In this document: piece after piece, positions 1 through 58,513 of the stretch
Layout of the letters: the number at the start of each line of letters is the position of its first letter
Position numbering within the stretch: position 1 is the first letter of the stretch
NCBI GenBank assembly: GCA_907163375.1
Contig: CAJQUW010009236.1
Location: 124,001-188,000, forward strand
Length of the DNA: 64,000 nt
Source of the DNA: Prostheceraeus crozeri
Lineage: Eukaryota; Platyhelminthes; Polycladida; Euryleptidae
Direction of reading: 5' to 3'
Translations under genes and position numbers: made by a program
The notes under the pieces: generated by a model
Seen by the model: the letters and a program-made list of their open reading frames with translations, nothing else
Database searches by the model: none
Told to the model about the DNA's origin: nothing

Positions 1-1647
1 AAGATGTCGTCGAAAGTTCAGATTGAATTTGCGTAGAATCACAGTGATAAAATATTCGTGTTGAAAGTCATTTCATAGGAATTTCAGAATGGTGCTCCAG
101 TGAGCCATATCCAACCTTTTAGGGTGCAAGTTTGAAAAGCTCTGTATCTAAAAGTCAGGAAAGCTACGTTCACGTAGTTTGGTTTCAAAAGATCGACAAT
201 ATGCGATTAAAGAAAGGTTATCAGAAAGCTCTCGATATCAACTCGACGACATCACTGATGTAATCATTCGCAAATGGATAGCTTTATGAACCTCTGGGGT
301 ATGAATCCTCTGCGGAATAAAACAAAAACTGTCTTTCGAAATTCTGTATTTATGTCAAAATATAAAAGAAATTAAATGGTTAATGGGCTGGGCCTTCGTT
401 AACTTTCGATTGAAACAAAGTTCTTTGATCTGTTTTTAGCATCATTTCATATGGCTAATTTCTCTCGCCTCTTGTGAATTACGTCAATGGACTTCGATAT
501 ATTTTATTTTGCACGGAGAACCTATGTGTCAAGGATGAAGCGATCTCCATGATCCCTCCATCATCTCTCTTCCGTGATGCAGCCATAAAGAGTGTCGATG
601 ACTCTTCATTCGCTCCTCTGCATGCCAGCATGCGCGGTATACAATGTTTTCAGTACGCTCCGCCACCTCTCAATGGTGAGCAGTTTGTCCAACCCACCTA
701 ATAATGAATCGCAGCCCGACTGTAACTGCAGTGACACTAATCTGAATGCACTGTTCAGGCACATTTGTCTTATGAAATGAGGCGGATGAAGATGATTGGA
801 AAGAATGTTGTTCCACTTGAAAATACAAATCGTCAGTCTTTCCACAACCGATCACATCTCTATTTTTGGCGAATTTGGGATAACGTAATTCACGCAAATA
901 AAACATCTACAGAATTAGATTCATCTGCGCGCGCTTCGGTTTCCTAGAAAGGAAGAATTGTACGTAACCTTAATATTGAAATGGCACATCACCGAATTAG
1001 AAAACTTGCTCCATCTCGAATGGATAATTCGTGTATCGCTTGCTATTGGAAATGGCAAACAATAAGCTGTCAGCAGAGGACAGTAGAGCCAGTGAGAGAT
1101 GCGTGCGTGCTGTGATATCACGTCGCACACACCAGAACACACATCGATGCGTGGCTTCGATTCAATGTATGCACTATACAGTGAGCAATGCCGAGGAGAG
1201 GATCATCAAGTGAACTAATTTTCGCACGCCTGCTACTTTCTTTAATAATGATCGGAAGGGTCAACATTATGGAGAAAACTTGTGAGCAATGATCTGAATT
1301 CTTCGAATCTGAAGGAATTTTGGCAATTGAAGCACTTTGCTGTAACTCACTTTAATCCGCAAGCGACGCACGACTTTTTTCCTATTTCTGTAAGGTATTA
1401 GGAATTCCTTTTTGCCCATCGAATACGTTCCTCAATGTGCCGTCCATTTCGTATTAATCACACTTCTAAAAACATCCTTTCTCCGTGATCGAATTATAAA
1501 GAAAACATAGGCCGGTTATTTTACCTTTTCTTTTATTTGCGACATTTTCGCCCTCTAGCAAATACACAGGGTGACGAAATGAAATGTTTTTATCCTATAA
1601 AGGGATGCAACAACGGAGTGATTACAACTTAGAAGATCTAGATAAAA

Positions 1648-1711
1648 TTGCGAAGCTTAAGTTAGACAATAATACAATTAGACATTTTATTGTCTAACTT
1701 AGGCTTCGCAA
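1648..1711. repeat. Inverted repeat, 25-bp arms
   Basis: Arms 1648-1672 and 1687-1711 are reverse complements with one mismatch (24/25), separated by 14 bp. It would form a strong hairpin. No open frame or terminator context is associated with it; it may be a tiny MITE remnant. Confidence 0.8.
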
Positions 1712-2314
1712 ATAAAATAAAAGATAAAATTGCTGGACTATGTTTTTCTTTATCATTCACGCATTCTTAATAAGAGACTGTCTTGCAGTTGCTTATAGCA
1801 TACAAAGTTGTTCGACAAACTGCATACTCTTTCCCATGCATAGAGTAGTTACAGTGTCGATTCAAAATGATATCTGTATACAGTGAAAATTTTTATATCA
1901 AAAGATTCAGTTTTTTGCGGAGATTACGTTCCCGTGGTCCAAAACATTTTTTGAGCAGCTTTGAAAAAGTCAAAATTTTGCCAATTCATATACTACCGAG
2001 ATGACGCCCTCCTAACTAAGCGGAAATTAAGCTGATTATCAAGGGAATTTCATGATACGTATTATAATGGAAGTCTTCATGAAAAAGTCGAGATATTATT
2101 CGTGCTATCTTGGCTGAAATTTCAAGTTTTTGATTCAATTTTCACTGGCATGATTTTATGATTCCCTCAATTCATGTTTCATTTATTGAATCTGAGTATT
2201 GATGTGGACCCATTTACAACTTTCAAAGTTAATTGAAATCATTGTCTTTGATTCGGTTATTTTGCTCTGCCAGTGGCAGGTTGCTTGTGATATGATCACG
2301 CTTAAGAAAATACA

Positions 2315-2551
2315 CTTGAGGTTGAGCATGAAAGTAATAGGAACCTATCGAATTGCTAATCTAACAAACATTAAATTCCCAAGGCTGTCATGACACTGAG
2401 AATCTATAAAATGCCATCATTCCTTCTGCATTACAATCATAATCACTCAATTCCGTGGCAATTTCTGCAAAACGAGTTCATTTAATAAATTCGAAGGTGC
2501 TTACACATTGGGGATTTAATAAATGCGGAGTTACCACTCTACCTAATATAC
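2315..2551 (+). repeat. Dispersed repeat copy A
   Basis: This stretch matches 45557-45842 in reverse complement, with scattered substitutions and one indel of about 50 bp. Shared landmarks include a CTTGAGGTTGAG start and a CTACCTAATATAC end. No coding frame is shared, so it is a non-coding interspersed repeat of unknown class. Confidence 0.75.
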
Positions 2552-3231
2552 CTACTCTATGTTCCCATGAGTAAATTTTTTATCTAAAAAGGACCGTATC
2601 TGAAAAGCGATCATTTTTATCGATTAAAAATTGCAAGTTACACTCTTCATTTATCCTGATAATCGTCATTGATCAGTGCAATTCTGTTTGTAACACCATC
2701 AAGATGATGAAAACTGATGGAGCTATGTACCTTAAAGTGACCATCGATGAGTTGAATAATGGATCTAGCAGTCGAGTCAGACAATCGATGTTCACAGGAA
2801 GTCCTTATGACCACCATCGATATCACATCTCATGTTTTACTTACGTGAATGTATAAAATAATCATAATTTATTTCTTACCACAATCACTGATTTTCAGGG
2901 CACTAAGGCAAGCTGGAAGCAGAAGAACTACAAGTGCAATGTTCATGATTGTATAGTGATATTGCAGTTTGGTTGATTAAAACATTTATATGCAAGCAAA
3001 TACTATAAAATGTGATCGAAGCAGATGCGGAGTTTTGTTCTATATACGTCATGGCAATTTGTCTCCAAAAAACAGAAGTCGACCGAAGTGATTAATGAAA
3101 GGAATTGCAGTGTATGCGTGTCATATTCTCATTAACTTCAAGCAAGCTCATTGATCGCCACTCAGTGTGCATTAAGTGCTTGTTTTTCCACTGTTGAGCG
3201 ATAACAGATAGGACTAATTACCGCAAAACCT

Positions 3232-3426
3232 CTTATATCGCAGCGCCTCCACTTAGATATCGGTCCATTAGAAATGTATGGGGCGGTATTAGTAGGTGTG
3301 TGGTCTATTACAGGGTTTTAGCTGGACTTATTAGCTGGAGGAGGTCTCTTAGAAGGTGGCGGTCTGTTAACAGGATGGCTGTCTCTTAGCAAATGGCGGT
3401 CTATCAGCAGGCGACTGTCTCTTTGC
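3232..3426 (+). repeat. Degenerate minisatellite, left part
   Basis: Imperfect tandem units of roughly 20-23 bp built around GGTCTATTAG and AGGTGGC-like words. The same kind of units resumes at 29823, directly after hAT1, so the array was split by that insertion. Confidence 0.65.
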
Positions 3427-3614
3427 CAGGGCCAGGCGCGGTTAACCGATTCAACCGGTTTAACCGCGCGGTTTTTGGGTAGGCAAAGCTAACATTCGAG
3501 TCAACCGCGCGGTTGAACCGAGAGGTGGTTAGGCAAATGAAGCATTCGAGTCATAGACGGTTCACTGTTGTCAACAACTCATTGAAAAAAATCCCAAGGA
3601 GAAATCGGCTTGTC

Positions 3615-3986
3615 AGTAGTTAGAATTGCGGACGCACTGATAGTGGATGCGAACATGGATTGGAACATGTGTTCCGAATTGCCAATGCGAACATGTTCCG
3701 AATTGCGAATGCGAACATGGATATGAACATGTTCCGAATTGCGAATGGATGCGAACATGGATAGGAACATGTAAATAGGAACCGCGTTCCGATTGATAGG
3801 AGAATTGAGATCATACTCAATGATTCGGAACGGCTTGTTCCGAAATTGAATTAGAGTATGTGAATTAGAATAGGGATGCGAACATCTATTTCGGTACTTA
3901 AACAGGTGTTTGTTTTGAGACTGCTTGCTCGAATGCGACAATTGTGGCCATTGTGACTATGATGACAATTTTATTTATTTTCATAA
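3615..3986 (+). repeat. Polinton left terminal inverted repeat (372 bp)
   Basis: Matches 23792-24163 in reverse complement; the one difference I found is an A/C at the GAGAT[C/A]ATACTC word. The repeat is internally reiterated with interspersed TGCGAACATG and GGAACATGT/ACATGTTCC words. Such internal iterations could bind a terminal protein or host factor, but nothing in the sequence decides this. Confidence 0.95.
3971..3979 (-). terminator. Possible poly(A) signal inside the left TIR
   Basis: TTTATTTAT on the plus strand gives overlapping AATAAA-like words on the minus strand, about 115 nt past the stop of the small minus-strand gene ending at 4096. Confidence 0.4.
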
Positions 3987-4095
3987 TGCGTTTACAGATC
4001 AGAAATTATGTTATGAATGTTCTATTATTTACTAATCAGAATCCCATTTACAGAATTTGCGAAATGAAAACAAGAGGTCTACAATGTAAGTGTAA

Positions 4096-4389
4096 TTAAC
4101 CATAAAAAATGAAAGAAGGTAAGTCACGTCCCTCGGGGGACTCTGTTAACTTCAAGAAGTCCTCAGCCCATTCGAGGAATGTTGCATTGTTTGTGAAGTC
4201 GTGATCACACTCGTGTATAGGGCACTTCGCCGACAGTCCTTTTCTCCTTTGGAGTGCTGTCACTGTTAAAGTCTTCCAGAGTTCCACTTTGCATCCGCAA
4301 CACAAATTAACCTTCGCATCCAACGATCCACCCATAATTACTTGACTTTCATTTTGGTAACAGAACAGTTGTTTCTGGGTACTCATCAT
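4096..4389 (-). CDS. Small Cys-rich Polinton protein, 97 aa, unknown function
   Basis: I do not recognise this protein. It has a central LCCGC group and a later CPIHECDHD group, a spacing that could hold one zinc ion, and no signal peptide or membrane segment. The start at 4389 has a second Met at 4386. A minus-strand TATATAAG lies at 4478-4485, about 90 nt upstream, and an AATAAA-like signal lies downstream in the terminal repeat. Together these support a short monocistronic gene. It is divergent from the gene starting at 4628, and the two share about 240 bp of intergenic DNA. By position it would be an early or accessory function, which is inference. Confidence 0.6.
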   Translation of the reverse strand: MMSTQKQLFCYQNESQVIMGGSLDAKVNLCCGCKVELWKTLTVTALQRRKGLSAKCPIHECDHDFTNNATFLEWAEDFLKLTESPEGRDLPSFIFYG

Positions 4390-4477
4390 GAAGTTGATTC
4401 GTAATAGATTCCTAATGTCTACTCAAGTCACGAGGATTAGAACTTGCTTAATTGGAACAATGTCATCCTTATATATC

Positions 4478-4544
4478 CCTTTAGGGAAAATCGGAACCTC
4501 TCTGATTGGCTGTTGGGAATTCCTTTGTTTAAAAAGTATATAAG
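4478..4544. promoter_or_regulatory. Divergent promoter pair with TATATAAG cores
   Basis: TATATAAG occurs on the minus strand at 4478-4485 (serving the gene at 4389) and on the plus strand at 4537-4544 (serving the gene at 4628). GATTGGC, a CCAAT box in reverse, lies between them at about 4504-4510. TTCCTTTGTT at 4520-4529 begins 17 bp before the plus TATA box, and the same decamer at the same spacing precedes the TATA at 6586. Confidence 0.65.
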
Positions 4545-4627
4545 TCCTAGCTGTGTACCAATTCTCATCAAAGGTTCTAATCCTCAAGTACCATATTATC
4601 AGCCATCTTATTCTAATCACATTGAAA

Positions 4628-5023
4628 ATGGAACGTATCACAGCACCTCCCACTTCTCCAGCTGAAGTTGAAAGGATCGAATCGGAACAGGTATTCAGAA
4701 CAGGACCCATAACTCCTCCGGAGTCATCCGAAGATGAGAATTGCATGGTACAGAGTAGTGTGTTCGAAACACCGGTGGAGGCCTTGATAACGGTGAAGAC
4801 ACGCTGTGGAAGAGATGTTCGAAATGCGCCCAGGAGGATCCACACGAAGCGAATAAGTGTGCGTATGGAACCCGATGAGGAAAATCTCACAACTGCGCTG
4901 GAGTTCAGCATTATAGAACCACCAACGCCTCGCCGCTGCCCTGGTGCCCCCAAGAAAACAAAAGTGTGTGTTCGTGTTGACTTAAAAAAACTCATTCCTT
5001 TTCCCAATATCAACAACATGTAA
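4628..5023 (+). CDS. Small Polinton protein, 131 aa, Pro/Ser/acidic
   Basis: Start chosen at 4628, about 90 nt downstream of a TATATAAG box; an in-frame Met at 4553 lies too close to that box. The N-terminal half has PP/SP motifs and an acidic SSEDE patch. The middle is Arg-rich. The C-terminus has PPTPRRCPGAPKKTK followed by a short basic/hydrophobic tail. The CP-x-AP-KK word superficially recalls short cyclin-CDK-inhibitor motifs such as those of plant SIAMESE-related proteins, but similarity this short may be chance. A long frame on the opposite strand is treated as a shadow because the TATA and CCAAT signals fit the plus strand. Function unknown; small early regulatory proteins are common in this position in related viruses. 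Confidence 0.6.
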   Translation: MERITAPPTSPAEVERIESEQVFRTGPITPPESSEDENCMVQSSVFETPVEALITVKTRCGRDVRNAPRRIHTKRISVRMEPDEENLTTALEFSIIEPPTPRRCPGAPKKTKVCVRVDLKKLIPFPNINNM

Positions 5024-5335
5024 CTTTTTATCTTAAATATGACTATACATAAATGAACAATCTTGTTTTTATAATTTCACAAATCGAATTTCTAATAGGA
5101 TTTGAATGGGAACTGGGGATAGATATATTCATCTCTGAAATAGCTACCTATAAGTATTTCTAAGTTTAATATTTGAAGGATATATATTTCAAATCACTTG
5201 TTTGAGACTTTGAAACAGCACCGAACGTACTAGAACAAATTTGAAATGAATATTAATGTGTAATTCAAATGATAGTCAAATTGGATGAAAGTTTGAATAG
5301 ATTTACAGTGTTTTTTGAATGCTTTTTTCACCTTA

Positions 5336-5668
5336 GGATGATATCATACATATTGCATACAATACATCATCAGCTAGAGAATGAAAAGACCTTTCTAATG
5401 ATATAAGGTATGTACCCATTCGATGAAGAAATCCCTGTTGTATGCAAGTGTATGCAGGAAGAAAAAATTTATAATTTCAATTTCTAAGTTTCTCAACTAA
5501 ATTCTATCTATCTTTCAAAGGGCTATAGCTGCTTCGGATGGTGTCATACATGTGTCATACAATACACCATTAGAATCAGCATGAAAAGAGCATTCGAATG
5601 ATATAGCATATGTACCTATTCAATGAAAAAATCCTTGTTGTATGCAAGTGTATGCAACTGGAAAAATT
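5336..5668 (+). repeat. Imperfect tandem duplication, period about 200 bp
   Basis: The block around 5336-5470 recurs at about 5536-5668, sharing GTCATACA, CATACAATACA and TTGTTGTATGCAAGTGTATGC. Coding capacity is nil. It lies in the non-coding block 5030-6560 of the Polinton. Confidence 0.7.
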
Positions 5669-5812
5669 CTAAGTTTTTTCTCAAAAATAACTAAGTTTTC
5701 AAGTTTTTGAAAATTTTCAAAGTTAAAGTTTGATCACTCGAAATGACCATAATGCATAAACTTCCACATGAACTTGACCTTGACCTTTGACTTGACCTTG
5801 ACCTTTGACCTT

Positions 5813-47319: not shown

Positions 47320-47719
47320 TACAAGTTTATGATTTCTCCACACTCTAGACGAACCTTGATTTAAACCAGGTTAAGGACTCCTTAAGAGAGTTATGTGACA
47401 TAATATTTAACAGTTCCAAGAGCTCATCTACATTGAATATTACAGAACATTCTTCTCGAGCGAAATGTACAGAGGCTATTACTGCTGCTCCAATACCCAA
47501 TTCCTCACTGATATTGATTTCATCCCAGATAAAACTTTTGCTACTATCGGGGGACTTGTTTTTAAACAAATTCGGGGTATTCCTATGGGGGAGAATTCCA
47601 GTTCACTCTTGGCTAATCTCTTCTTGGCATATAGGGAGTTCAGATGCGCGACGGGTCTCTTGCTAGCACGTAATTAAGCCATACTTCTCCCTAGTACCAC
47701 CAGGTATGTCGACGACATT
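47320..47719 (+). pseudogene. Penelope-like reverse transcriptase, left half
   Basis: The frame runs through YDFSTL- and DFIPDKTFATIGG-like words to QIRGIPMGENSSSLLANLFLAY, the GIPMG(T/E)N...LADLF region typical of this RT class. After one stop codon (47675-47677) the same frame continues to RYVDDI at 47702-47719, the catalytic motif. It is cut there by the mini-Polinton. The stop suggests that it was already dead, or died later. Confidence 0.75.
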
Positions 47720-48216
47720 AGTAGTATATAGTGTGACATCCGGCGCGACGCTTCGCTTCGCTTGCGCCGGATGTCACACTTTTGCGGGTTTTTTCAAAAA
47801 AAGCAAAATTTCAAAAATTTAGGTAGACTTCAAATTTCACGTGGCCGAAGGCCGAAGGGGCGAAAATTTAGGTAGTGACAAATTTTCAAAAAAATCAAAA
47901 TTTCAAAAATTTAGCCGGTCTCAAAATATCACGTAATCTCAAATTTGAGAATTACAATTTTCACCCTTAAAATCATGACCGTTCCAGGACACCGAAAATC
48001 ATAAAAGTTAAGAATCACAAAATTTGAGAATTACAATTTTCTCGCTTAAATCATGACCGTTCCAGGACACCGAAAATCATAAAAGTTAAGAATTTCAAAT
48101 TCATGAATTTTATCCATCTTTCAGGTTTTTAAAATATATCATGTGACTAAAAATATTTCTTTAAAAATGGAAGAAACAAAAGTGGATGAAACCGCAAGAA
48201 TATATCCTTCGTTATC
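47720..48216 (+). repeat. Mini-Polinton left terminal inverted repeat
   Basis: About 497 bp, matching 52984-53466 with indels and substitutions. A hairpin of GTGTGACATCCGGCGC and its complement around CTTCGCTTCGCTT lies almost at the tip. The word CATGACCGTTCCAGGACACC occurs twice in a unit of about 80 bp. The inner end contains a truncated copy of the 5' end of the element's own first gene (start codon at 48167, open for about 29 codons). Confidence 0.9.
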
Positions 48217-48582
48217 TCAATTAAAAACAGGTGAAATGGTTCTCAATTATTATTAAGATTAGAGCAATATGATAAATTAAGAAGACGCAATTATTACTTA
48301 GCCATTCTTCGTTATTGTATTTTCAACATTATTTAAAGTACTAATTGTGTGAACTAGAAGATTATTGTAACTCATAAACTCAAAATTATTCAATGAACCC
48401 GTACACTGGCTGATAATTGAAGAGAGACAGAGATTGAAGAGAGAGAAACATGTAACAGCTTTCCCCTAAAATTATCGTGCTATCTCTTGTCATTTCAATT
48501 TACCCATCGGTAAACTTTTGACATTTCAACTTACGCGTGCGTAAAGTTTTGACATTTCAATTTACCCCTACGTAAATTATTT

Positions 48583-49182
48583 TCAGAATCTGTTTTCAAA
48601 ATCTATTTTCAAAATCCATTTGTAATCCATAATCCCTGCCCCTCTATGCGATCTTTGTACTAACTTCATTCCAAAATCTTCATATTTAATGTTACCTGTA
48701 AAAATCCATTCGTTAGCATCGGATTTCTCATCCAGATTCGAAAACCATATTTCAAATGAATTTTTATTATAGAAGGTTACGTAAAAATTTTGAATTATAT
48801 TTTCCTGATCTTTAACAACTTTTCCAAGTAAATTAATAATTTTACCATTTGCTAAAAGTTTCCTCATATCATTTACTACATTAATAAAAGATACATTTTC
48901 ATATTTAATTTCATTTGGATTAAATAAATTACATAAATCATCACCAAGTTCATCCTTAATTCTATCATCGAAAAAGATATCAGTAATAGGAGTTTCTAAT
49001 ATTTCTTTTGTTCCACTTTTCTGTTTTTTAGTATTACGTCTAATACTACGCCTAGTACGTTTCTGTTTTTTAATACGTTTACTACGTTTACTATGTTTAA
49101 TTTGCGCATCAAACTCAGCAATTTGTTTCTTGATTAATTCATCAATCCTAGACGTTTGTCCGAGAGACATTTCACGATTCAT
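48583..49182 (-). CDS. Mini-Polinton protein A, 199 aa, unknown
   Basis: The N-terminal 60 residues form a basic helix rich in Lys/Arg (HSKRSKRIKKQKRTRRS), suitable for nucleic acid binding or core function. The rest is a compact domain (about residues 65-195) with INVVNDMRKLLANGK, FYVTFYNKNSFEIWFSN and a terminal GAGIMDYKWILKIDF. I do not recognise it. It is the last gene of the leftward cluster. A basic virion protein or a very small capsid component is possible, and the absence of any other capsid candidate makes it interesting. Confidence 0.55.
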   Translation of the reverse strand: MNREMSLGQTSRIDELIKKQIAEFDAQIKHSKRSKRIKKQKRTRRSIRRNTKKQKSGTKEILETPITDIFFDDRIKDELGDDLCNLFNPNEIKYENVSFINVVNDMRKLLANGKIINLLGKVVKDQENIIQNFYVTFYNKNSFEIWFSNLDEKSDANEWIFTGNIKYEDFGMKLVQRSHRGAGIMDYKWILKIDFENRF

Positions 49183-49231
49183 ATTTTTTAAAAGAAAAAA
49201 TGAATTTTTACATAGAACCTCGGTTCCGTTT

Positions 49232-49537
49232 TTACATATACACAGGAATATGTAATTGATGTAATGTTTCTAATTCATGTGTTGTTAAATGTTCTTTCTT
49301 AACCAACCACCATAAATTATTATACGCCAAAAATACTCGGAAACTTCTTAAACAAAGTGGAAAGTCTTTTGTTTTAACACACGGTTTAATACCATGTTTT
49401 GTTTTATAATCTGTAACGAGCGCTACGTATTTATGATGATAATAAAATCTAACTTCTTTCTTCGAATTTACAGGATTTGTAGGATGACGATAATCTTTTA
49501 AAACTGGTACATGCTATATCTTGTAAACATCCAACAT
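49232..49537 (-). pseudogene. Small broken ORF between protein A and the ATPase
   Basis: An ATG at 49537 opens a frame that meets TAG after seven codons (49514-49516) but then stays open for about 92 more codons to a TAA at 49232-49234. The downstream part is aromatic and basic (EVRFYYHHKYVALVTDYKTK, then LAYNNLWWLVKK) and looks like real protein. Either one nonsense mutation has killed it, the start lies elsewhere, or the stop is bypassed. Family unknown. Confidence 0.5.
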
Positions 49538-49601
49538 ATTTTTTTTATTTTTATTAACAAAAAATTTATAAGAAAAAATTATTCGGTCACTCCGTTCGGT
49601 C

Positions 49602-49652
49602 ACTCCGCGAAAATATTTTCTATCGACTTTCACTCCGCGAAAATATTTTCTA
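49602..49652. repeat. Short direct repeat at the ATPase 3' end
   Basis: ACTCCGCGAAAATATTTTCTAT occurs twice, the second copy encoding the last codons of the ATPase. A related CGGTCACTCCG lies next to it. Confidence 0.75.
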
Positions 49653-50397
49653 TAACTCTATCATGAATTTTTTTATCAATATTAATTGTGATAAATCCAT
49701 AATCTTTTGACCAAGCATTGTTACACGATTGTTTAAATTCATCTTTATTTCTTACATATAAATCTCTTAACAAATCACTTAAGTTTCTTGCATTTATTTC
49801 AAATAGTATAAATATATTTGCATTCTTTCTAATAACACTTCCGTCTAATGAATACATACTTTGTGTTAAATAAAAAACACTACAGTTATTATGTCTACCT
49901 CTTGTAAAATAATTTCTCTGAACTGACTGATTTCTGTCATTAACACAATCATCAAAAATTACACAATGTTTCATTGTTTTATCTAGTTTACTAGGATCTT
50001 GCATATTACCACTATCATCTATTAATTGTATTTTTATATGCTTATTTTTATTAGATTCTACTAACTGATTATTTTTTGCTGCTTCTTCACACCACGAACT
50101 TATTTCTTCTTCATCTTCAGATTTTTCATATTCTTTGAATAATGAAGCAATTGCTGTTTTTTTAAGATTATTTTCAAATCCATATTTTAAAAATTGATAG
50201 ACGGGTTGTTCTGCCGTTGTTGTATAAATTATAAGATTGTTATAATCCAAAAAATTTGGAGTCGTTAAAATTTTAAATAATAGATACGTTTTTCCACATC
50301 CTGATCTTCCACAAATAACTGACAAAACTTTATTAGATAAATTTGGATGATGATTAAATTTGAGTTTTTTTTTATTTAATGGAGGTACTTCACTCAT
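49630..50397 (-). CDS. Packaging ATPase of the mini-Polinton (A32-like), 255 aa
   Basis: Walker A is GRSGCGKTY (about residues 30-38). Walker B is KHCVIFDDC near 148. The following RNYFTRGRHNNCSVFYLTQSMY has the conserved Arg and Gln of A32-type virus packaging ATPases. It is only distantly similar to the 211-aa ATPase of the large Polinton (different Walker A, longer acidic insert around KEYEKSEDEEE), so it is not a recent copy. It starts 95 nt beyond the penton-like gene's stop. Confidence 0.85.
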   Translation of the reverse strand: MSEVPPLNKKKLKFNHHPNLSNKVLSVICGRSGCGKTYLLFKILTTPNFLDYNNLIIYTTTAEQPVYQFLKYGFENNLKKTAIASLFKEYEKSEDEEEISSWCEEAAKNNQLVESNKNKHIKIQLIDDSGNMQDPSKLDKTMKHCVIFDDCVNDRNQSVQRNYFTRGRHNNCSVFYLTQSMYSLDGSVIRKNANIFILFEINARNLSDLLRDLYVRNKDEFKQSCNNAWSKDYGFITINIDKKIHDRVIENIFAE

Positions 50398-50491
50398 TTT
50401 TTAATAAAAAAATTTTATTTTTATTTTTAAAGAAGAAGAAAATTAAACTTCTCTAGCTTCGCGTGGGATTTTATACCTCTCGAACGGGAGT

Positions 50492-51280
50492 TTATACCTC
50501 CCGAACCAAAAGATCTATCATAATCTCTTCACCTCCAAAATTTATTTCTTGTCCTTTCTCATCAGTGATTCTAATGCCAATGTTGTTAATAGTTTTTCTT
50601 GTAATAGGAAAATATATTAATGTTTGTGGAATTACATTTAATCTATAACCAATGGGTACAGTAAAAGCTGGAAAACTGAATATTAAATTTGACAATTTAC
50701 CATTTATATATCCTCCTTCAATAATGTCACAATGTACAACAATTGAATTTATTTCAGTTATTTTTGGAATCTTCTCACCTAAATGATAACCTTGACTATA
50801 GGTTTGTTTATTAAATCCTAATAGCTTTGACAATGATCTATCATGATTAAAATCAACTTGATGATTTTCGTCTAAAGTAAGAGAAAATTTATTAACTGCC
50901 GGTTCAACTGCAAAATGTAATTGTTTCTTATCTTTAAATGGTATACCTAAATGTCTCTTAAATTCATTTGATATTGATTCAACTTCGTAAGAACCAGGAA
51001 GAAAAGTTAGTACTTTCCACGTTTTGCCTTTATCAGTAGAATATCTAAATTGATCATTCACATCTTTGATAACGTTTTGAATAGTGTTAAATGTAGAGAA
51101 ACTAGTCAATGCAATTTGATAATTTTTATTCTGTTCTAAATGAAGAATGGGTTCTAAATTACAAGTGTGTGATGAAGTAGTTGTTATAATTTTTAACGTC
51201 GTACTAAATTTTGATGAACCCAAAATCTCTGTCAAATTTTCTAAATGATTATTAATTTTGTCTAAATCTGTTGAACACAT
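50492..51280 (-). CDS. Penton-like minor capsid protein of the mini-Polinton, 262 aa
   Basis: Residues from about 110 align by eye with the C-terminal third of the large Polinton's 534-aa minor capsid protein: SLSKLLGFNKQTYSQGYHLG against TSTLGFSKSTIYEGTSIG, and YFPITRKTINNIGIRITDEKG against YVPMSRNVINRIDISIHDDTG. The N-terminal part has LHLEQNKNYQIALTSF, recalling the LHGPHEVALTEI entry. It is half as long, lacking the middle. It is expected to form vertex proteins or an anchoring spike. Confidence 0.75.
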   Translation of the reverse strand: MCSTDLDKINNHLENLTEILGSSKFSTTLKIITTTSSHTCNLEPILHLEQNKNYQIALTSFSTFNTIQNVIKDVNDQFRYSTDKGKTWKVLTFLPGSYEVESISNEFKRHLGIPFKDKKQLHFAVEPAVNKFSLTLDENHQVDFNHDRSLSKLLGFNKQTYSQGYHLGEKIPKITEINSIVVHCDIIEGGYINGKLSNLIFSFPAFTVPIGYRLNVIPQTLIYFPITRKTINNIGIRITDEKGQEINFGGEEIMIDLLVREV

Positions 51281-51358
51281 TTTTTAGTTAAAATTTTGAA
51301 TAAATATTATAGATAAAAATCGTAGATAAAAATCATAGATAAAAATCATAGATAAAAA

Positions 51359-52252
51359 TTAGAAACAACATATTTCAGCTACACTTTTATAATCCTCTTC
51401 ATTTAGAATCTTCTTTTCTAACAGTCTTTTCAATATAGCATGAATTTTATTGAAACTAGAATTATGTCCTTCTTTTATTGCCGATATTAAAATATTTAAT
51501 CTATTTAGTAATTCTTGCGGATCATCTGGTAAGAATACAGTTGTTTCTGTTTTCTGTTTTTCAGATAAACCTTTTCCTACTTTAACTCCCGTTGATAATA
51601 AATTTTCTAATTGTTTATAACGTCTAAGAGATTTTACTGCACCAACTCTATCTAACATAGCTTTATATTTTATGAGATCTTCTACAGCATAATTATTTAA
51701 ATCTGCTCCTCTTAAAAGATCAACAAAATTTCTATCTAAATTAAAAGGAGATTTATCTGGTGAAAAAATTAAACCTCGAAAAGGTTGTGGAAATATTTCT
51801 TTTTGTCCGAGATAAAATCTAGGTATTGTTTTTCCATCTATAAATGAGATAGAATGTTCAAATTGCATAGATTTTGGTAATTTCTTATTAATGTTTGATT
51901 CTAGTAATCCATAGTCATCTAATATAGTTTTGTGTTCTGGATCTGTTATATCAATTTGTTCATCATTATTTGTACTTTCTTTTTCAAGAGTTTTAAATGG
52001 TTCCATAGTTTTTTCAAAATCAGTTTTTACTTGTTCGGTTTGCTGCATTTTTTCAAACATATCAGATTGAATACCAGCTTTTATCATTCTATGTTGAAGA
52101 TGATTTTCTTTCATAATATTTCTTTGTTTTATTAACTCTTCTAATTGTTTTATTCTTTTAAAATTATCAGCTCTAATTTTATCCATTTTTAAAATATAAT
52201 ATTTGAATTTTGTGGTAACATTGGAATACAGCAAAAACATTTTACTGAACAA
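51359..52252 (-). CDS. Mini-Polinton protein B, coiled-coil head, 297 aa
   Basis: A long helical head (about residues 25-90: FKRIKQLEELIKQRNIMKEN) is followed by IDGKTIPRFYLGQKEIFPQPF and the module NFVDLLRGADLNNYAVEDLIKYKAMLD, then a helical tail. A similar architecture (helix, GEI-type loop, DLL-x-YA helix) is seen in the 216-aa protein next to the ATPase in the large Polinton, so they may be counterparts. The start at 52252 could also be at 52186 (MDKIRADNF). Function unknown; virion scaffold is a guess. Confidence 0.6.
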   Translation of the reverse strand: MFSKMFLLYSNVTTKFKYYILKMDKIRADNFKRIKQLEELIKQRNIMKENHLQHRMIKAGIQSDMFEKMQQTEQVKTDFEKTMEPFKTLEKESTNNDEQIDITDPEHKTILDDYGLLESNINKKLPKSMQFEHSISFIDGKTIPRFYLGQKEIFPQPFRGLIFSPDKSPFNLDRNFVDLLRGADLNNYAVEDLIKYKAMLDRVGAVKSLRRYKQLENLLSTGVKVGKGLSEKQKTETTVFLPDDPQELLNRLNILISAIKEGHNSSFNKIHAILKRLLEKKILNEEDYKSVAEICCF

Positions 52253-52307
52253 ATTATTTTTTTATTGCTTTGTTGTCTGACATCTTTTCGTTTAAAGTTT
52301 TCTCGTT

Positions 52308-53033
52308 TTAAGTTTTGTTTAATAAAGTTTTGTTTAATAAAGTTTTGCTTAAATTTTCGCTTAAAGTTTTTAGCTCTTCTAAAAAAATTTTGTCATTTTC
52401 TTCATTAGAAATTTTACCACCAGTAAAAGTTTTACCATCACTAGAAATTTTGCCATCCTGTCTATTCTTATCATCAACTTTTTCGGACTGTAATTGAAAG
52501 GTTTGATTTACTTCATTAGCTATTTGATCAAATTTTTCAATCTCATCTAACGTAATAACATTATCATCACATACTCTTTGAAAGTAGTAATGTAGTTTAT
52601 CATAGACTTCTTTAATATGTAAATGCTTAGTTTTTAATGATTTTCGTTTCTTAGTTATTAAAGATTTATCTAACATTGTAACAAGTGAAGTTGCAAAAAC
52701 ACCCGTACCTGTTAAAGCTGTAGCAACTACTGGAATTACTAAAACACCTGAAGATATAACAATTGTTAAAGCACCTAAACTTATTGTTAAGAATATGCCA
52801 ATTCCTTGTGTTACATTCTTAACTTTACTCCATCTCTTTCTTAATTTTTTATAATGCTCTAATCTTAATAATAATTGAGATTCCTTATCTTTCATATACC
52901 TAACTCTATCTTTGTGTTTTTCTTTGTTCATTTTTTCAATGTTCATTTTTTCAATGTCCATTAAAGTAGAACTACGTTCATATGATAACGAAGGATATAT
53001 TCTTGCGGTTTCTTCCACTTTTGTTTCATCCAT
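52308..53033 (-). CDS. Mini-Polinton protein C, membrane protein, 241 aa
   Basis: Start at 53033 (MDETKVEET) chosen over 53057. A basic coiled stretch (DRVRYMKDKESQLLLRLEHYKKL) precedes a strongly hydrophobic region of about 45 residues (IGIFLTISLGALTIVISSGVLV, then ATALTGTGVFATSLV), probably two membrane spans. Then comes KTKHLHIKEVYDKLHYYF and an acidic TLDEIEKF helix. The end repeats LLNKT. Its first 17 codons lie in the terminal inverted repeat, so the other end of the element carries a cut copy. A role in membrane penetration or assembly is possible. Confidence 0.65.
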   Translation of the reverse strand: MDETKVEETARIYPSLSYERSSTLMDIEKMNIEKMNKEKHKDRVRYMKDKESQLLLRLEHYKKLRKRWSKVKNVTQGIGIFLTISLGALTIVISSGVLVIPVVATALTGTGVFATSLVTMLDKSLITKKRKSLKTKHLHIKEVYDKLHYYFQRVCDDNVITLDEIEKFDQIANEVNQTFQLQSEKVDDKNRQDGKISSDGKTFTGGKISNEENDKIFLEELKTLSENLSKTLLNKTLLNKT

Positions 53034-53466
53034 TTTTAAAGAAATATTATTAGTCACATGTTATATTTTAAAAACCTGAAAGATGGATAAAATTCATGAA
53101 TTTGAAATTCTCAACTTTTATGATTTTTGGTGTCCTGGAACGGTCATGATTTAAGCGAGAAAATTGTAATTCTCAAATTTTGAGATTCTTAACTTTTATG
53201 ATTTTCGGTGTCCTGGAACGGTCATGATTTTGGGGGTGAAAATTGTAATTCTCATATTTGAGATTTTGAAAAATTTGAAAATTGGGTATTTTTAAAAACG
53301 CTTAAATTTTCGCCCTTCGGCCTTCGGCCACGTGAAATTTGAAGTCTACCTAAATTTTTGAAATTTTTGAAATTTTGATTTTTTGAAAAAAACCCGCAAA
53401 AGTGTGACATCCGGCGCAAGCGAAGCGAAGCAAAGCGTCGCGCCGGATGTCACACTATATACTACT
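52984..53466 (-). repeat. Mini-Polinton right terminal inverted repeat
   Basis: About 483 bp, matching 47720-48216. It has the same tip hairpin and the same doubled CATGACCGTTCCAGGACACC unit. It contains the promoter-proximal end and start codon of protein C. A plus-strand frame beginning at 53383 runs out of the repeat into the RT and is an artefact. Confidence 0.9.
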
Positions 53467-53472
53467 GACATT

Positions 53473-56797: not shown

Positions 56798-57767
56798 CTG
56801 AAACCACAAAGCCAATTATCAGCAATAATTCAGTCTTAAATGCAGCATAATTTTTTGGAATTTTGCTGATTGTAGATTGCAATAGTTGAAAGCTGAGTTG
56901 CAACCTCAATGGAAAAATGGGTATAGACCTGAATAGTCGCCATTTCATCCGATATCAGTAGACATCAGCAGGGCTAGTTCACATCTCTCAGCATCCACAA
57001 AACTTCCTCATTAAACATGTAGTCGCACCAGCAGTAAATATGAGATGCGCAATTAACATGTTTTGTTGATTGTGTTCAAATGACGTTAATCCGCTGAGGC
57101 TAAAACTATAATCTGTATTAGGGAAGGATGCAGATCTTTGAGCGCAATTAAGAGACACTCAGACACCTTGTCAATCCATGACTCAATCAAATTTTGAATT
57201 GCGGCATTTCATGCACGTAACTAAGGTACATATGGGGTTCTTATCTCATGAATGCATTGATGAAAACACAAAACTTAATGCAGAAATAGTGGGAAAGCAG
57301 ATAACCGATATAAATAAATAGTTCATGCTTCAAGCTTGTCATAAATACCTGGATGGATGTCTTAATTCCAAAGCTGGATGGGCTATAGTCGAAAATCTTT
57401 GACTATACACCTAGAGTTTACACACATTTTGATGAATGGATAAAATGCTGGAAATATTGGAAGTACCTGCACACTGAACACGTCCCCTAGATATTTGTCC
57501 CTTTTGTTGTTAATCGACATCGCCTACGATTGTCAGATTACATCAACTCTTGTTGTACATGAAAATTCCGATAATCCGAACAATATTATCTCGATCATGC
57601 TTGGTTGCTCGATCAAAAATGTCGGACTCAGCATGCGACCGAAAATTGTCATCACATAACTTCAACTCTGTTCTACACCATTTCTATTTGAGGCGTATGT
57701 ATGCAGTTGTCCAATACATGGCCGAACCAAAAACATCAACCGCTTACTGAGCGGACCCGCAGTCTTA

Positions 57768-58511
57768 GTCCGGGAGCTAGCGTGAAGTTGTGCAGGGAAC
57801 GAGGTAGTACATAAAACTTTCACATTGCATAGTACACCTCCAACCTACTGCAAAACTTCGCGTCTGCCGGATCAGATCATTTGCTTTTCAGAAATAGAGA
57901 GGATAACACAATCCTATGTATTTCCAATGGTAAAATTGTGACATTTAAGGTGTTGACTCCATTTTTTCGAATTTTTGATCATAAAAGTTACACAAATTGA
58001 TATTTTGTTGAACTGGTTATTATAGAAATCATCTACAGATCATGATCTTTCAAATGAGTTATCATTCAGTGACAGAGGATGAAGTAAAGTGTACAAACAG
58101 ACACTTTTCGTTAAAGTATATCAACAATTTTCCTGAAATTTCTATGTTAAAATTTGCAGTTACACCAACGAAAAGTGTCTGTTTGTACACTTTACTTCAT
58201 CCTCTGTCACTGAATGATAACTCATTTGAAAGATCATGATCTGTAGATGATTTCTATAATAACCAGCTCAACAAAATACCAATTTGTGTAACTTTTATGA
58301 TCAAAAATTCGAAAAAGTGGAGTCAACACCTTAAATGTCACAATTTTACCACTGGAAATACATAGGATTGTGTTATCCTTTCTATTTCTGAAAAGCAAAT
58401 GATCTGATCCGGCAGACGCGAAGTTTTGCAGTAGGTTAGAGGTGTACTATGCAATGTGAAAGTTTTATGTACTACCTCGTTCCCTGCACAACTTTACGCT
58501 AGCTCCCGGAC
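57768..58511. mobile_element. Foldback/palindromic MITE with TA duplication
   Basis: Arms 57768-58112 and 58167-58511 (345 bp each) are near-perfect reverse complements (several substitutions) around a 54-bp loop. The element begins GTCCGGGAGCTAGCG, ends with the complement, and has TA on both sides (57766-57767, 58512-58513), as for Tc1/mariner-type insertions. No coding. Confidence 0.9.
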
Positions 58512-58513
58512 TA

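Follow-up and report, generated by a model that had tools for sequence, protein, structure and literature searches.

We analysed a stretch of 64,000 nucleotides from the polyclad flatworm Prostheceraeus crozeri (contig CAJQUW010009236.1, positions 124,001 to 188,000; hereafter the window), in which a unit of 5.7 kb at positions 47720-53466 bears the ends of a Polinton/Maverick transposon. The initial annotation had proposed that this unit is a mini-Polinton, probably moved by the large Polinton of the same window (3615-24163) or by a relative of it. We are confident that the unit is a single, non-autonomous copy, deleted internally, of a long Polinton family that resides in the same genome, because both of its ends are shared with long copies, a single break separates it from them, and its junction was found only once.

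The features of the locus are listed below in window positions. ORF stands for open reading frame, TIR for terminal inverted repeat and aa for amino acids; L011 to L016 are pieces of long copies found elsewhere in the genome.

47714..47719, no strand: left target-site duplication, GACATT
47720..48216, plus: left TIR, 497 bp, with the tip AGTAGT and a hairpin some 10 bases in from the end
47720..48625, plus: left arm of the parent (unit 1-906), matching L011 at 97.4%, L015 at 93.8% and L014 at 94.0%
48583..49182, minus: 199-aa ORF, truncated by the deletion; start of the ORF directly before the PolB domain in the long copies
48626..48629, no strand: filler TCCA at the internal deletion junction (unit 907-910)
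48630..53466, minus: right arm of the parent (unit 911-5747), matching L012 at 94.7%, L013 at 94.4% and L016 at 94.5% (to unit 5329)
49630..50397, minus: A32-type packaging ATPase, 255 aa (PF04665, 25.2 bits, cut-off 22.8)
50492..51280, minus: penton (single jelly-roll vertex protein), 262 aa, by hhalign and fold match
51359..52186, minus: 275-aa protein with no assigned function; three of its seven listed relatives are from Lottia gigantea
52308..53057, minus: 249-aa ORF that starts inside the right TIR; by eye, one stretch of it is hydrophobic
52984..53466, minus: right TIR, 483 bp, with the tip ACTACT and the same type of hairpin
53467..53472, no strand: right target-site duplication, GACATT

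A bounded Polinton insertion and its genes

The unit is a real, bounded Polinton insertion. It has both a 6-bp target-site duplication and TIRs with (AGT)2 tips, two traits of Polintons/Mavericks; its tips, AGTAGT at 47720 and ACTACT at 53466, are each flanked immediately by GACATT, just as the initial annotation had described. The alignment of the two TIR arms spans 511 columns, of which 449 match, 20 mismatch and 42 contain a gap, and stable hairpins were found at both tips (z -6.1 on the left and -6.8 on the right). Among the 97 pairs of AGTAGT and ACTACT in the window that are more than 1 kb apart, only two have identical 6-bp flanks, namely the unit and the large Polinton. The G+C content is 27.9% in the unit compared to 37.2% in the window. 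When the unit and one GACATT are excised, the two flanks join in one reading frame (...RYVDD-I-RIFNYKHF...), with a stop codon upstream in the left flank. From its YVDD motif, we take the target to be an interrupted reverse-transcriptase frame; neither the joined flanks nor the piece of the left flank by itself was recognised by Pfam.

The five longest stop-to-stop frames in the unit, all on the minus strand, have 300, 263, 256, 250 and 228 codons, and the sixth, on the plus strand, has 148; in 300 shuffles, the longest frame reached at most 170 codons. The ATPase has a terminase-like match in PHROGs (E 3.4e-08), and a search of the PDB by sequence gave nothing convincing for it. For the penton, hhalign gave 96% to the penton of the large Polinton over 149 columns, and the mavirus penton was the top PDB match in the structure search. 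As the top Foldseek rows had low TM-scores (about 0.3-0.4) and many rows in one structure search were unrelated folds at middling Z, the label penton rests on the sequence comparison and the fold match together. The predicted model of the 275-aa protein is poor (pLDDT 59). The 249-aa ORF matches an unnamed PHROGs family (5.9e-4), and the other ORFs of the unit had weak matches there. Between the ATPase and the 199-aa ORF, at 49184-49660, a frame of about 100 codons is interrupted by a stop, and the piece after this stop has no Pfam match.

No capsid protein was found in the unit, and neither an rve integrase nor PolB was matched by Pfam among its five main ORFs. The description of the unit as lacking a visible integrase or polymerase thus stands for the domains. 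It needs amending for the 199-aa ORF, whose first 188 residues align with residues 1-189 of a 428-aa ORF of L012 (long copy C2621; 96% over 189 columns). The 199-aa ORF is the cut-off start of the parent ORF that precedes the polymerase domain.

Long copies in the same genome and the deletion junction

We searched the genome (2.05 Gb in 14165 contigs) with the left TIR. The search yielded 40 scored matches including the window, from 2736 candidates at first look, where one copy may yield two matches. Five inverted TIR pairs on one contig were spaced 16.1-18.5 kb apart and the other listed rows were unpaired; this pair test is weak, since arms as different from each other as those of the unit would escape detection as a pair. 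We read three long copies piecewise: C2621 (18548 bp, duplication GCTTAG, containing an insert-like ORF), C13520 (16146 bp, duplication GAGCAG) and C4790 (16769 bp, L015/L016 at C4790:140700-158000, duplication GTAGAG). Thus, the 6-bp duplications that the initial annotation had suggested looking for in other copies are present in all three. With its TIRs, tips and duplication, and with long copies that have the same ends, the unit does belong to the Polinton system, as had been supposed.

The long copies carry the genes that the unit lacks. An rve integrase was detected by Pfam in L011 and L015 (41.1 and 41.0 bits, cut-off 32.6), the family-B polymerase domain PF03175 in L011 and L013 (76.7 and 72.4 bits, cut-off 25.8), and the double-jelly-roll capsid domain PF21738 in L011 and L014 (67.7 bits, cut-off 27). 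A 161-aa ORF of the long copies is a candidate protease; it has no Pfam match and resembles a 153-aa ORF of the large Polinton (BLASTP E 0.002), which itself has only a sub-threshold match to Peptidase_C48. In C13520, a 718-aa ORF ends 8 bases ahead of the ORF with the PolB domain. Some of the three long copies have broken frames, so that whole elements are not necessarily intact. The presence of an integrase and PolB in longer copies with the same ends is a result that, according to the initial annotation itself, would refute its reading.

Two further observations concern the long copies. In two of the three, an integrase and a phospholipase-A2 (PLA2)-like domain (PF08398; 36.2 bits in L011 and 37.5 in L015, cut-off 23.9) share one open frame (L011:2719-3870 and L015:2673-4004). 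This frame has an ATG start in L015 and no ATG ahead of the PLA2-like domain in L011, while the two domains lie in different frames in L014. A parvovirus-type PLA2 domain is mentioned in a figure key of PMC3671162. Furthermore, C4790 has left-type sequence (unit 1-906) at both ends, forming inverted repeats of about 920-935 bp: the match to the right arm stops at unit position 5329, and the tip region beyond is of the left type. These double left ends suggest end copying in replication, or conversion.

Compared to the three long copies, the unit has a single break, between unit positions 906 and 911, and it is 10.4-11.0 kb shorter than the two long copies without a foreign-looking insert (16.1-16.8 kb). 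At the junction, the left parent sequence ends in GTAA and is followed by TCCA and then by the right parent sequence TAATCCC. Together with the TAATCC-like repeats beside it, this filler would fit end joining. We searched the genome with 240 bases spanning the junction and obtained 41 matches; 40 candidates were scored, out of 1092 at first look. Only one of the 41, the window itself, spans the junction; 23 end at base 119, 16 start at base 124, and the remaining match is weak and short (82%). A search for 23 bases of the junction that allowed up to two mismatches found one site in 2.05 Gb, and none with the reversed control. Of the 39 half matches, we examined 29 as loci (23 left and 6 right halves). 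Twenty-one of the left halves, including the reference copy L041, continue like the parent over about 1.5 kb, and in five of the right halves the 630 bases before the match are parental. L033 and L044 among the left halves and L045 among the right halves do not follow the parent, and the stretch before the right half of L045 matches none of the loci compared.

The parent family looks abundant and recently active, with a large recent expansion. At least 149 ATPase matches and at least 146 penton matches were scored in the genome, both including the window; 148 of the 149 and 145 of the 146 are without internal stop, and identities are 98-100%. These are the best-scoring matches, so that the sample is biased towards intact and similar ones. 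The unit itself looks young since it has few private substitutions: in 4184 gap-free columns of the 4493 of the right-arm alignment, it has 12, compared to 26, 35 and 39 in the long copies. Over gap-free columns, the right arm of the unit and that of one long copy are 1.3% divergent.

In the scans of viral contigs, for which we used the ATPase, the penton and the 275-aa protein as queries or alignments and a 17-base tip pattern, one contig (L001) was found, with a distant ATPase. The only match on a genome contig (L002) has an ORF that by eye looks like a bacterial FtsK-type protein, and we set it aside. Among the protein hits, the values 14827, 4872 and 5595 recur as the length of the longest contig, which hints at linkage of the genes. 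For the 275-aa family, hhalign to an ORF of L001 or to a 226-aa protein of the large Polinton gave nothing. In public JGI/ENA assemblies, the proteins P0092 and P0103 are 98% identical to the penton over its whole length and to the 275-aa protein over 83% of its length; near-identical elements therefore exist in other samples.

The large Polinton of the window

The large Polinton has TIRs of 372 bp at 100% identity and the duplication CTTGTC. Its integrase was detected by Pfam and its ATPase and penton by hhalign to the families of the unit, and we take its 1299-aa ORF for a candidate PolB. It resembles the unit in its AGTAGT tips, its 6-bp duplication and a related penton (30% over 160 aa), and its integrase is related to that of the parent family (38% identical over 234 aa). 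It differs in that the one tip we folded has no strong hairpin (z -1.5), and also in its DNA: at E <= 1e-3 the unit matches nothing else in the window, the large Polinton included, and at E <= 1e-5 the large Polinton matches none of the long-copy pieces. On these sequence comparisons, the large Polinton belongs to a different family from the parent of the unit.

The initial annotation had taken the shared AGTAGT as a link between the two elements. With no DNA match and with divergent integrases and pentons, this link does not hold; the hexamer has been reported as a Maverick end motif and so fails to tie the unit to the large Polinton. In PMC8097293, a passage that cites Kapitonov and Jurka 2006 gives (AGT)2 as an end motif of vertebrate Mavericks. 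The large Polinton need not have been involved in the insertion of the unit. The proposal that this element had moved a separate mini-Polinton fails, as the unit is a deleted copy of another, long family and its junction was found once. We found no evidence for movement of the short form in trans.

As a separate observation, a foldback-like structure is seen at 57766-58513 of the window, where 347 bp recur in inverted orientation, 98% complementary, around a spacer of 54 bases.

Origin of the short copy

We propose that a full-length copy was probably inserted by the integrase of its own family into retroelement-like sequence, giving the 6-bp duplication, and that the middle part of about 10 kb would then have been lost by end joining with a short filler. 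The deletion may have arisen in the chromosome after the full-length insertion, which we slightly favour, or in replication before a single insertion. That the unit still has the penton and the ATPase reflects their position outside the deleted block, and not a use of them by the short form.

Some points weigh against this explanation. L033, L044 and L045 may perhaps be other rearranged, shortened or deleted forms. In addition, only the best candidates receive a score in the genome search, and diverged or rearranged short copies could therefore escape it. Finally, an origin before insertion followed by one insertion in trans would leave the same duplication.

The last of these possibilities, a deletion form born in replication like a defective interfering genome and integrated once in trans, is a special case of the deleted-copy explanation, and we give it a substantial chance that stays below even. 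It would agree with the young look of the unit, with the retention of both ends and the TIR hairpins, and with the end changes that occur in the family, as in C4790 with its left-type sequence at both ends. However, it cannot be distinguished from a deletion after insertion, and chromosomal end joining accounts for the junction filler no less well. More tentatively, we suggest that the parent Polinton might make internally deleted genomes when replicating and integrate them in trans; the unit would then be one such genome that was caught with its replication ends and packaging genes kept.

One alternative is a true mini-Polinton, a short lineage of its own that would rely on full Polintons for integrase and PolB and spread in trans. 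It could explain the TIRs, the duplication, the intact ORFs and the missing integrase and PolB domains. We consider it very improbable. Several copies of one short form, as expected of an amplified family, were not seen in the junction searches, which recovered the junction once, and a right arm only 1.3% from one long copy leaves no separate lineage. Furthermore, the 199-aa ORF is a truncated piece of a longer parent ORF, and, in a weak test, all five inverted TIR pairs were 16.1-18.5 kb apart. A virophage-like independent lineage with its own gene set was likewise not found, as the genes and sequence of the unit are those of the right end of the parent.

There is also little to recommend an assembly artefact in which two half elements were misjoined. 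High-copy repeats are prone to misjoining and the junction was seen once, but GACATT on both sides and one frame over the joined flanks fit a single real insertion, and the junction has a filler rather than a clean overlap between copies. Least credible is a satellite that would hijack capsids and supply a penton and a packaging ATPase of its own. These two genes are retained, and we detected neither a capsid protein nor an integrase or PolB domain, but the gene set is exactly the parent content right of the break and the junction was found once, which refutes such a satellite as a lineage. The long copies speak against both this reading and that of a bipartite genome, which the penton and ATPase without capsid protein might have suggested.

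Besides the large Polinton, two known systems come close to the unit. With full-length Polinton/Maverick parent copies it has in common the ends, the TIRs, the 6-bp duplication, the penton and ATPase genes and the remainder of the right end, whereas it is without the integrase, the PolB domain, the double-jelly-roll capsid protein and the candidate protease. Non-autonomous derivatives of DNA transposons that arise by internal deletion are a known kind of element. The unit is like them in that both ends are kept and the middle is lost in one block; it differs in that no amplification was seen and in that open structural genes are retained.

The unit is thus not a new kind of small mobile element, and as a young-looking deleted Polinton copy it is by itself of little weight. 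It illustrates that an ATPase and a penton between TIRs in a unit of 5.7 kb need not mean a satellite. The parent family is the better lead, and it could be used for the study of Polinton replication and of the deletion forms of Polintons.

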